Assembly (NCBI RefSeq): GCF_041361465.1 | Contig: NZ_JBGKAC010000002.1 | Span: 124,001-188,000 of the forward strand | Origin: Halobaculum sp. MBLA0143 | GTDB taxonomy: Archaea > Halobacteriota > Halobacteria > Halobacteriales > Haloferacaceae | Direction: 5' to 3' | DNA: 64,000 nucleotides | Translations under genes and position numbers: made by a program | Part shown: in pieces, positions 22,169-32,532 of the stretch | Layout: the number at the start of each line of letters is the position of its first letter | Numbering within the stretch: position 1 is the stretch's first letter | The notes under the pieces: model-generated | What the model was told of the DNA's origin: nothing | What the model saw: only the letters and a program-made list of their open reading frames with translations | Databases searched by the model: none

Positions 22169-22741
22169 TCACACTGTGAGCTCCTGTGAGATCACGATTG
22201 TCTCGGAGGGGGTGTGTACGACTGCCACTCGGAGTCGATCACCCTCCTGGACCGGACAGCCGTCGTCCTGGTCACCCGAGAGCCGGAGTTGAAACGACTC
22301 GCCAACTTCGAACGCGTTGTCAGTGTGGTCTCCGAGAGGGCCGATGTTCCACTCCTCCTGATCGAAAGGGTGTCCCTTGACGAGAATAGAACTGTCACCG
22401 TTCACGAAGTTCTCGTCGTCGAGCTGATCGCCGCCGTAGCTGTAATCCGCTGGCAAGTTCACCACACGTGCTCGCTGTCCACAGGCATCGGTAGCGTCGA
22501 CGACGATTTCGATGTTACTCACCTGGACAGGGTCACCGCCCTCGTGTGTCACTGTCAGGATACCGCCGGCGCCGCCGTCGGCTGGGTCGACGTCCCCACT
22601 CGATTGGGCGACGAACGGCGGCTCGGTGTTCACGTCGTTGCCGAAATCGAGCGCGAAGGCGGAGATGGTCGCAGCGAGAATCACAACGATTGCCACCAGT
22701 AGGATCACCGAGACGACTGGTGACACGCCGCGGTTCTTCAT
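22169..22741 (-). CDS. Archaeal type IV pilin-like protein
   Basis: A 190-residue secreted protein. The N-terminus MKNRGVSPVVSVILLVAIVV is a class III (prepilin) signal: a short basic leader, then the hydrophobic stem that would form the pilus core after cleavage by prepilin peptidase PibD. The body is acidic and beta-rich (GGILTVTHEGGDPVQVSNIEI), with two conserved-looking cysteines (DACGQRA and DGCPVQ) that may pair outside the cell. Haloarchaeal pilins of this type act in adhesion. It stands alone, with no pilB/pilC genes nearby. The ATG at 22741 is set by the signal; an A/T-rich region lies upstream. Confidence 0.85.
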   Translation of the reverse strand: MKNRGVSPVVSVILLVAIVVILAATISAFALDFGNDVNTEPPFVAQSSGDVDPADGGAGGILTVTHEGGDPVQVSNIEIVVDATDACGQRARVVNLPADYSYGGDQLDDENFVNGDSSILVKGHPFDQEEWNIGPLGDHTDNAFEVGESFQLRLSGDQDDGCPVQEGDRLRVAVVHTPSETIVISQELTV

Positions 22742-22954
22742 GTGTACCGGAGTACGCTCTACCTTTGTGTAAGCTTGGCGAATGACAGTACGCAAGAACT
22801 TTGCGGGGTGTATTCGGTCTCGATCACCGCCGCTCTGCAGATCCACTCCAGTGTTCGGCGGTCGAAGGACTCTGTAGCGAGCCACAGGCGTGCTCACTCG
22901 AAGTCGAGAGCTGGGCAGCCCGAGGTGTGTGACAGCTCCTGCCGGTCGAGTGTC

Positions 22955-28707: not shown

Positions 28708-31700
28708 TCAGTAGCCGAACACGTCCACGACGGTCCCGTCCGCGTCTCGGATCGTCGCCGTGTCGCCGTCGTTGTTCCAGACGAACCCTCTGTCCCAGTT
28801 GAGCGTGAGCGCCGCCGACGGTGCGGTCCCGGCGGGCGTCTCGTTCGTCGTGACGACCGCCCGCTCGCCCGCTGCGAGCGTCGCCGACGGGAAGGTGAAC
28901 GTCTTGTCCGTCTCGTCTGACAGCGTCCACCCGTTCAACGCGACCGGCTCCGTTCGGTCGTTGCGGACGACGACGTACTCGTTTTCTCCGTCCACCTCCT
29001 CGATCGACACCGCGGCGGTGAACAGCTCGGGGAACGTCGTCGTGTCGAAGTTCGTCGTCGTCGGGGTGAAGGCGTCGCCCGTGTTGTTCTGGTCGTCGAA
29101 GACCTGTGCGTCGTCGAACCGGAAGCCGACGCCGAGAGAGTCGGCCACCGCGTTCAGATTCGCCGTCTGGTCGAAGTCGTTGGAGTCGGACTGGTCGACC
29201 AACACCACGACACCGCCGTTCGAGACGAACGACGACAGCGCCGACAGTTCCGTGCTGGTGAACGCAGACGGCGACGTGACGACCAGTGCGTCCGCTCCCG
29301 ACAGGTCGGTCGTCGCTTCGACCGTGTAGCCCGCCCCCTCGGCGAGCCCCTCGAACGTGGAGAACTTGTCGAGTGTGTAGAACTGACCGTGGCTCTCGTC
29401 CCACAACACCGTTCCGTCGTCGACGTACTCCTCCAACAGGTTGAGCACGAACGACTCGTTGCCGACTGCCGAGAAGTCCGTGCCGTCTTGGAGGAACGGA
29501 GCCGTGATCCCGGCGACCGTCCCCGACCCGGTCGTCTCGACCGCGACGAGCGGAATCTCGTCGTCCGTGCCCGGGTCGTCGTCGTACGGATCGACGGCGT
29601 CGCCGTTACCGTCGCTGTCGCCCACTCGTGCCGTCGGCTCCGAACGGACGGCGACGATCGAGTCGTCCGTCAGCGCCCGGTCTGCGTCGTCCGCGCCGGT
29701 GTCCGCGTTCAGGAGTGCAGACCCGGAGTCGAACACCAACCGATCGATCACACCCGTCCCCGGGCCAGGCGTGAACGCGGTGAACAACCCGTCCGGGCCG
29801 GGGAACGCGGTCGTCGTCGGGAGCGTCTCGTCCCCACCGAGGTTGTTCGTCCCGTCGGTCACCGCGTTCGTCGTGAACCCGACGTCCGCGCCGAGGTCGG
29901 ACACGAGCGCGTCGAAGTTCGACAGTGCCTCGGTGTCGGCCGCCGAGCCGATCAGCAGTACCGCACCGCCCGCGTCCGCGAAGTCGGCCACGACCTGCCG
30001 TTCCGCGTCGGTGAACGACTCCGTCGGCGTCGTGACGATCAGTGCGTCCGACGCCAGATCACCGTTCGCCAGCAGTTGTGGGCCGGCGTCGTCGGTGAGC
30101 GTGTTGGTGCCTTCCAGCGCGATGCTGCCAGTGTCGTCGGCCCCGTCCGGCTGTCCCTCCAGGTATCGCTGGTAGTACGCGACGTCCTCGCTCGACAGCC
30201 CGAAGTCCGCCCCGAACTGACCGTGACCGCCGTCGATCACGACCCGGTCGGTGAGCCCGCCGTCGGCGAGCCGATCCAACAGATTCGTGACGAACGGGTA
30301 CACCTGGGTCCCGTCGTTCGTCGGCTCGCCGTCGCCCGTCTCGCTCGGTTCGAACCCTTCGTCGATCAGGGGGCCACCGACGGCGGCCACCCTGGCGTCG
30401 TCGTCGAACGCGGCCAACGGGTCGCCCGCCTCGCTCTCGACGGCGGTCGTCCCGCCGGAGACAGCGACCGGCTCCGGGAAGAACAACGTCGAGACCGGAT
30501 CGTCACCCGACTCGGGCACACTCCCCGGGTCGGACAACTGCCAGATCCCACTGCCGTTCGCCTGTGCCTGGTTCTCCGCGTCCCAGTAGTCGTCGTGTCG
30601 GGCGAACCCGGAGGAGTAGACGCGTGCCCAGCCGTCCGCGACGATCTCGCGGTTGTACACGTCCCCGTTCGGCAGTTCGAGGAAGCCGAGCAGCCGACCG
30701 AAGTCACCACGAACCGGCTCGTTCGGGTCGAACGAGAGTGTCACCGTCTCGTCGGCCAGGTCGTCTTCGGCGTACGCCGTGGCCCCCTGGTCGGCGATAC
30801 TGCCGCCGTCTTCGGCGAGTGCCTTCAGATCGCTCGCCTGGTCGGGGGTGATCCCCTCGTACTCCACGATGCGTTCGTCCGTATCGCCGGTCTCTGGCGT
30901 GTCGATTCCGACGATCCGGACCGTGTCCGACGGGGTGTTCAGGAAGTTCTGGAACTCCACGTTGACGGTGTCGCCGTCCGTCACCTCCGTCACCGCCACC
31001 TCGTACTCCTGTGTCGGATCGATATCGATCCCCAGCCCGGAACGGTCGTCGAACAGTCTCGGGAACCGATCCGTGTTGAACGCAGTCGTCGTCGGGACGA
31101 ACGATGCGCCGGTGTTGTTCTCGTCGTCGAGCACCTGGTCGTCGTTGAACCGGAACGACACGTTCAGTGCCTCCGCGATCTCGTTGAGGTTGTCTGTCGC
31201 GTCGAAGTTCCTGAAGTCCGACTGGTCGTGGAGGAACACCGTGCCGCCGGCGGCGACGAACTCGGAGAGTGCGTCCAACTCGTCGGTGGTGAACCCGTCC
31301 GACGGTGACGTGATCACGACTGCGTCGGCCGGGTCCGGTTCGGACAACACTGCTGTGAGGTCGTCCCCCTCCTTCCCGTAGCTGTAGCCGTTATTTTCGG
31401 CGTACGTGGCGAACGACTGGAAGTCGTCGCCGCCGTTCGGGGACAACGAGTAGAACTGTCCGTGACTCTCGTCGTGGACCACCGTCCCGCTCCCACCGAG
31501 CAGTTCGTCGAACGCGTTGAGGAACAGTTCCTCGTTGCCGAAGTCGCCGAACCGAGTGTCGGACGCGACGAACGGCCCGGTGACCGCGAACACGTTGCCG
31601 TCGAGAGCCGCGATCGGGATCGGCGTCCCCTCCGGGTACGACACTGCGTCGCCGTCGCCGTCTTCGTCGACGTTGGTCGCCGTCGGCTCTGCCGTTGCGA

Positions 31701-32349
31701 CGATCACCGAGTCGTCGGTCAGCGGCTCGCCGGTCGCTCCGTCGCCACTGTCGTCGTACGAGGCTAGGAGACTCGACACGGAGTCGAGCTGCAGCGGCTG
31801 GATCGGGTCGGTCACCGGCTGCGTGGGGCCGGACCCACCGGCCGGCCGGTCGGCAGTCGCCCTGATCGTCACGTCGACGTCGAACTCGCCGGTGTCGAGT
31901 CCCGTCGTGTCGAGGAACACACCGACCGAGACGGCCTCACCGGTCCCCAGTTCGACTGCGTTCGCCGCCGTCAACGGCGTGTCTGCGCTCTCGGTGAACA
32001 GTTGGAGTCTCCCGTCGCCCAGTGAGTCGTCTGTCACCTCGGTGAACAGGAACACGGGCTGTGTCCCCTGGTTCCGAACACTGAGTACGTCGTCGAAGGT
32101 GTACCGAGAGTCCGTACCGACGCCGTCCCCCAGTCCGCCCTCCCCGAAGTCGATCCGTGCCGTCCCGCCGTCCGTCTCCACGTACGCGCCGTTCTCGTCT
32201 CCCGGCCGGAGTGCCAGGAGTGCGTCGCCGTCGTCCGCCGTGGAGACGTTCACACTACGCTGTGCCGTTACAGTCGTGAAGGCGCCCGTCCCGAACACGA
32301 GGCCACCGCTGGCCGCCGCGCCCAACCCGAGCATCGTTCGTCGTTTCAT
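28708..32349 (-). CDS. Giant secreted protein: SNase domain, three DUF4350-like modules, lamin-tail domain
   Basis: A 1213-residue exported protein. Residues 1-30 (MKRRTMLGLGAAASGG...) look like a Tat-type signal; ~31-168 resemble small haloarchaeal secreted DUF1102-like proteins. Two similar modules lie at ~190-435 and ~870-1110 (HDESHGQFYSL / WDESHGQFYTL; FVAAGGTVFLHDQSD / FVSNGGVVVLVDQSD; DDENNTG / DDQNNTG). A third, more distant one is at ~645-850 (VIDGGHGQF). These look DUF4350/GATase-like. A staphylococcal-nuclease (thermonuclease) domain lies at ~448-604, with EVTDGDTVNV, VRIVGIDTPETG and FGRLLGF supplying the Asp, Arg, Glu and Arg expected at the active site. Residues ~1110-1213 form a lamin-tail (LTD) beta fold (VALNGWTLSDETDKTF). 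I infer an extracellular or surface DNA-processing role. The ATG at 32349 is set by the signal peptide. Confidence 0.85.
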   Translation of the reverse strand: MKRRTMLGLGAAASGGLVFGTGAFTTVTAQRSVNVSTADDGDALLALRPGDENGAYVETDGGTARIDFGEGGLGDGVGTDSRYTFDDVLSVRNQGTQPVFLFTEVTDDSLGDGRLQLFTESADTPLTAANAVELGTGEAVSVGVFLDTTGLDTGEFDVDVTIRATADRPAGGSGPTQPVTDPIQPLQLDSVSSLLASYDDSGDGATGEPLTDDSVIVATAEPTATNVDEDGDGDAVSYPEGTPIPIAALDGNVFAVTGPFVASDTRFGDFGNEELFLNAFDELLGGSGTVVHDESHGQFYSLSPNGGDDFQSFATYAENNGYSYGKEGDDLTAVLSEPDPADAVVITSPSDGFTTDELDALSEFVAAGGTVFLHDQSDFRNFDATDNLNEIAEALNVSFRFNDDQVLDDENNTGASFVPTTTAFNTDRFPRLFDDRSGLGIDIDPTQEYEVAVTEVTDGDTVNVEFQNFLNTPSDTVRIVGIDTPETGDTDERIVEYEGITPDQASDLKALAEDGGSIADQGATAYAEDDLADETVTLSFDPNEPVRGDFGRLLGFLELPNGDVYNREIVADGWARVYSSGFARHDDYWDAENQAQANGSGIWQLSDPGSVPESGDDPVSTLFFPEPVAVSGGTTAVESEAGDPLAAFDDDARVAAVGGPLIDEGFEPSETGDGEPTNDGTQVYPFVTNLLDRLADGGLTDRVVIDGGHGQFGADFGLSSEDVAYYQRYLEGQPDGADDTGSIALEGTNTLTDDAGPQLLANGDLASDALIVTTPTESFTDAERQVVADFADAGGAVLLIGSAADTEALSNFDALVSDLGADVGFTTNAVTDGTNNLGGDETLPTTTAFPGPDGLFTAFTPGPGTGVIDRLVFDSGSALLNADTGADDADRALTDDSIVAVRSEPTARVGDSDGNGDAVDPYDDDPGTDDEIPLVAVETTGSGTVAGITAPFLQDGTDFSAVGNESFVLNLLEEYVDDGTVLWDESHGQFYTLDKFSTFEGLAEGAGYTVEATTDLSGADALVVTSPSAFTSTELSALSSFVSNGGVVVLVDQSDSNDFDQTANLNAVADSLGVGFRFDDAQVFDDQNNTGDAFTPTTTNFDTTTFPELFTAAVSIEEVDGENEYVVVRNDRTEPVALNGWTLSDETDKTFTFPSATLAAGERAVVTTNETPAGTAPSAALTLNWDRGFVWNNDGDTATIRDADGTVVDVFGY

Positions 32350-32532
32350 GGTAGCCGCGATCTCTCGACCGCGTCTCACCACTCGACCGGGTGTTACCTC
32401 GTTGTGTGCCGCCAGAAACATCTCACGTCTCGGTTGAACGTTCGAAATCTGTTCAATACCTATATAGAGTGGTGTGAAACACATTCACATCCGAATCCAA
32501 CTCGTCGTGAAGTCGACACTCCTGCCGACGGC

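Follow-up and report, generated by a model that had tools for sequence, protein, structure and literature searches.

A predicted haloarchaeal nuclease with a fimbrial-type domain: a candidate surface-tethered enzyme

A minus-strand gene (positions 28708-32349) in a 64,000-nucleotide stretch of the Halobaculum sp. MBLA0143 genome, hereafter the window, encodes a protein that joins a staphylococcal-type nuclease (SNase) domain to an N-terminal domain, here named TafN, which is by sequence a homologue of haloarchaeal fimbrial subunits. Four lines of sequence evidence, namely an export-type signal, the homology of TafN to a pilin, an intact predicted SNase active site and the co-occurrence of TafN genes, suggest a Tat-exported extracellular nuclease tethered to the haloarchaeal surface by its fimbrial-type domain, probably mounted on a fimbria. 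We give this reading an even chance, with fimbrial mounting the likeliest tether.

The open reading frame translation yields a complete coding sequence of 1213 residues plus stop, and the plus-strand frame of the same interval contains stops. The original prediction of a 1213-residue exported protein stands, with the strand, which it left unstated, being minus. The frame starts with MKRRTMLGLG, while an alternative in-frame ATG at 32484 would give a longer product of 1258 residues. Position 32349 is the likely start, because a TATA-like element (ACTCTATATA; about 32461-32470, with CTATATA at about 32461-32468; minus strand; found by eye 5' of the proposed start) lies between both ATGs and because the TafN family alignment begins at MKRR. 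ACTCTATATA is read as promoter-like by its resemblance to the archaeal TATA motif; archaeal promoters are outside the scope of the sigma-70 promoter scan. Terminator-like sites were at chance level (2 found against 1.9 expected), and the search for tandem repeats found none. No phosphate or competence genes were recognized by eye among the neighboring window frames, and an operon of either kind around the nuclease gene was rejected on this ground. Elsewhere in the window, the frame at 22169-22897 (minus) contains a type IV pilin-like start (MKNRGVSPVVSVILLVAIVV).

The domain order proposed earlier proved correct: above its curated cut-offs, Pfam reports DUF1102, then DUF4350/GIFT-like matches in three stretches, as well as SNase and a lamin tail domain (LTD). 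All coordinates that follow are on the minus strand. A Tat-type signal peptide (residues 1-30, KRRTMLGLG...GAFTTVTA; 32260-32349), defined from the sequence and a 23-row alignment, precedes the mature fimbrial-subunit-like TafN domain (residues 31-166; 31852-32259; Pfam and profile searches), within which DUF1102 matches residues 55-166 with 31.8 bits (cut-off 22.2). Module M1 follows (residues 179-446; 31012-31815; Pfam), then the SNase domain (residues 447-606; 30532-31011; PF00565 at residues 476-604, 29.8 bits against a gathering cut-off of 21), module Mc (residues 619-866; 29752-30495; Pfam), module M3 (residues 867-1108; 29026-29751; Pfam and comparison with relatives) and the LTD (residues 1111-1213; 28711-29019; PF00932 at residues 1112-1213, 69.5 against 34.3 bits), which also matched lamin chains in the PDB.

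The module boundaries are our own segmentation. Far from matching unrelated families, the modules score with DUF4350 (PF14258, three stretches, 79.4 against 30.4 bits), IFT52_GIFT (PF23355, 42.1 against 27.2 bits) and ABC_transp_aux/GldG-like (75.8 against 34.7 bits). The two outer modules, rightly described at the outset as homologous and sharing DESHGQFY, both match DUF4350; Mc, 3' of the SNase, is a third, diverged homologue carrying DGGHGQF. The idea that M3 is a fresh copy of M1 was rejected, since M3 most resembles the module nested in loci L011 and L014 (55-56%). Alignments A2-A4 were set aside because their modules were out of register. At another locus (L070:6899-10030), one DUF4350 module is apparently nested in another, 5' of the SNase.

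A 65-row SNase profile (the window protein plus 64 relatives) matched staphylococcal nuclease with an E value of 5e-15. The predicted catalytic Asp-Arg-Asp-Glu-Arg set (D460, R478, D483, E486 and R552 in the window protein) is invariant in 65/65 rows and in register with 1syb, whose catalytic residues we take to be D21, R35, D40, E43 and R87. The claim that the catalytic residues are retained is thus borne out at the sequence level, with no active-site mismatch to staphylococcal nuclease seen. The EcnA equivalog (NF047969) cut-off was not reached (76 against 180 bits). An AF2 model of SNase-Mc (alignment A5) had a mean pLDDT of 57, mostly below 50 in the SNase part, and Foldseek with this low-confidence model gave no match at E<=0.001, its top matches being unrelated. 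In some relatives the SNase domain is split within a single open frame, where DUF4350 modules enter after its DTPE part and before the next helix (one insert in L011, L012, L014 and L015; two in L013 and L016), and a profile of the window protein with these split halves still matches staphylococcal nuclease.

The DUF1102-like region reported by the original prediction is present above the Pfam cut-off; its most informative aspect, the homology to fimbrial subunits, had been overlooked. A TafN profile built from eight domains of the window genome (A1) was compared with all PDB sequences, and the sole match at E<=10 was the pilin 9p0a (E 6e-23), which from its sequence appears to be haloarchaeal. 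Since signal peptides could account for this score, the search was rerun with mature TafN only (25 sequences); 9p0a was again matched with an E value of 1.4e-8 over residues 34-189 of 215, against 0.75 for the second-best match. The best NCBIfam match of the N-terminus is TafE, a "fimbrial adapter" (E 7.5e-18; 1.8e-6 for the mature part alone), with a score of 58-65 bits (64.9 at best) that misses the equivalog cut-off of 155 bits (NF052522); the TafA and TafC cut-offs are likewise missed. We use TafN superfamily for proteins combining a Tat signal with a pilin-homologous mature domain, and the window protein has both. Positions M1, R3, R4, G22, A23 and F24 of the signal are invariant in the 23 rows of the TafN alignment, and this Tat-type RR signal, common to the Taf family, supports the predicted export. 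An AF2 model of TafN from a single sequence reached a pLDDT of 37. No TafN was found in viral contigs.

The window genome holds nine unbroken TafN genes, all on the 589-kb contig and seven of them with frames above 400 aa; TafE above its cut-off was absent from this genome. Six form a one-strand cluster of ~10 kb (L018:8341-17982; G000:C2 about 58-68 kb), of which two encode ~200 aa and four have large passengers, three of them beta-helix/NosD-like and one LamG. The nuclease gene, itself the ninth, lies on the same contig ~90 kb from this cluster. The remaining two encode a TafN-GH97 glycosidase fusion with C-terminal binding modules (L020:5450-9790) and TafN with a PAP2/haloperoxidase-like enzyme (L019:6467-8785; the PAP2 match is weak and below cut-off). 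Among ten large TafN proteins of other genomes, chosen by length, Pfam recognized beta-helix in two (one just below cut-off), NosL in two, LamG in one and VWA in one, and no passenger family in four. TafN matches also lie inside very long open frames (G160:C188:4389-4892, 2815 aa; G383:C3:1656572-1657051, 2613 aa). More tentatively, haloarchaea may build enzyme-bearing fimbriae, with TafN as a general plug that mounts unrelated, Tat-exported folded passengers on Tat-fimbriae (the nuclease, the GH97 glycosidase, the PAP2/haloperoxidase-like enzyme, beta-helix, LamG, VWA and NosL-like proteins) and with fimbria-losing lineages swapping the plug for another anchor; we hold this generalization possible rather than probable.

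Some part of the protein was matched in 254/293 genomes of the order (E<=1e-10), many matches covering the SNase region only, and the M1-SNase-Mc core is widespread. Our trees comprise proteins with retrieved loci, to the exclusion of further matches without loci, and omit the six nested proteins L011-L016, a broken copy from genome G120 and the second G362 copy. The 65-row tree resolves one clade of 22 rows, 19 with TafN (SH-aLRT 100), and the same split is found in a 31-row subset of these sequences (support 100/100). In the other clade, 42 of 43 rows lack TafN; the exception (L152, G473) sits on a long branch and is apparently a second, independent fusion. Since the N-termini inspected among these TafN-less proteins start with a plain RR signal in its place, TafN would seem unnecessary for export. 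Most clade members lack a module at the place where the window protein has M3, G361 being one that has a module there; the G109 frame has an interruption in its TafN part. A TafN-M1 gene lies directly 5' of the TafN nuclease in eight genomes (G004, G236, G389, G371, G383, G374, G370 and, counted by listing, G362). In G120 (L061), an unbroken TafN-M1 gene is accompanied by a nuclease core that is fragmented over different frames and resembles a broken copy. Outside the window, the genome of the window protein has three further SNase-DUF4350 relatives (G000:C1:402610, 2867185 and 284485), one with two internal stops.

Other TafN genes are present in all 19 genomes having a clade TafN nuclease. 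Three clade members lack TafN: two are in genomes with no TafN matches (G064, 99% complete; G391, 82%), while the third, against this trend, is in a genome with five (G361). Fisher's test of clade TafN against other TafN genes gives p 0.013, a value that ignores relatedness and includes the 82% complete G391. In the genus of G064, 9/13 genomes have TafN genes, and TafE-like matches (E<=1e-8) occur in 194/293 genomes. At its C-terminus the G391 protein (L126:1171-3729) carries a PGF-CTERM sorting signal (32.9 bits against a cut-off of 24.5), a predicted archaeosortase anchor that may replace TafN as surface attachment.

These observations suggest a mechanism in which the protein would leave the cell through the Tat route and TafN would then dock onto further TafN proteins on the cell surface, probably within a fimbria or at its base. 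The nuclease would thereby be displayed beyond the S-layer and cut extracellular DNA. The likeliest role of the DUF4350 modules is that of spacers or of binding or oligomerization units, and the lamin tail perhaps helps to hold DNA or the surface. We infer the docking of TafN in a filament, the cutting of DNA, the role of the modules and the use of the DNA, be it phosphate nutrition or biofilm turnover. Counting against the mounting are the missed Taf cut-offs, the lack of a TafE above cut-off in the genome, G361, G109 and the distance to the TafN cluster.

Some of these points would suit a cell-wall or freely secreted nuclease whose TafN does no more than provide an export cassette and a beta-domain and never enters a fimbria, an explanation that we consider less probable while taking it seriously. 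TafN scores far below the Taf equivalog cut-offs, the gene is solitary with its own TATA-like element, and clade members without TafN persist. However, the mature domain, beyond the signal alone, matches the pilin; the TafN genes in 19/19 genomes, together with the TafN-free genomes of two of the three TafN-less clade members, speak against it; and an export cassette is hardly needed when 42/43 rows of the other clade do without TafN. We find it unlikely that a fimbria-held nuclease binds and nicks DNA for import as part of a competence apparatus: LTD and SNase do occur in haloarchaeal extracellular-DNA proteins that used to be annotated as competence proteins, but uptake genes were not recognized by eye among the neighboring frames, and Hvo_1477 is, according to its authors (PMC3929857), no ComA/ComEC homologue. 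The LTD, the several modules and TafN-M1 partners without SNase could speak for an adhesin or matrix protein that binds DNA and whose SNase is decaying. This is very improbable, given that the SNase is the best-conserved domain against the nearest orthologue (76%, against 38% for TafN) and keeps its catalytic set throughout.

Tat-fimbriae (tafi) were recently described as a class of surface fiber in archaea. If fimbrial-subunit-type domains do carry enzymes, such fibers would be a scaffold for extracellular catalysis reached through a folded-protein export route, a natural surface-display system at high salt and, for the haloarchaeal extracellular-DNA economy, the basis of a second, fiber-linked nuclease class. 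Our full-text searches, judged by title and the start of the abstract and not covering the original tafi paper (Galeva 2025), returned no paper joining Taf domains to nucleases.

The window protein can be set against four known systems. PMC5898192 reports, on the basis of HHpred, that arCOG01314 (DUF4350) resembles GldG as well as the middle domain of beta-galactosidase; the module family is shared, but there a C-terminal membrane anchor follows the domain, whereas here three modules surround a nuclease. The TafN-less haloarchaeal SNase-DUF4350 proteins, annotated in plasmid records as "thermonuclease family" or "lamin tail domain-containing", share the M1-SNase-Mc core (42/43 other-clade rows) and differ in having the plain RR signal instead of TafN. 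TafA, TafC, TafE and the pilin 9p0a, the tafi being known here through PMC12687288, have a homologous Tat signal and mature domain; the Taf proteins are, by NCBIfam name, fimbrial subunits or adapters, whereas TafN of the window protein is joined to a nuclease and stays under every Taf cut-off. Closest in function may be Hvo_1477 of Haloferax volcanii, described in PMC3929857 as a 327-aa SNase and lamin tail lipoprotein with a lipobox. It shares the SNase-then-LTD order with the window protein, which would likewise be exported to the haloarchaeal surface, and because deletion of Hvo_1477 showed that it is needed for growth on DNA, extracellular DNA gains support, by analogy, as the natural substrate of the window nuclease too. 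Unlike Hvo_1477, the window protein has TafN, three DUF4350 modules and 1213 residues, and it lacks the lipobox Cys, residues 1-40 containing none. On our best reading, the window nuclease would be functionally near Hvo_1477 and differently attached.
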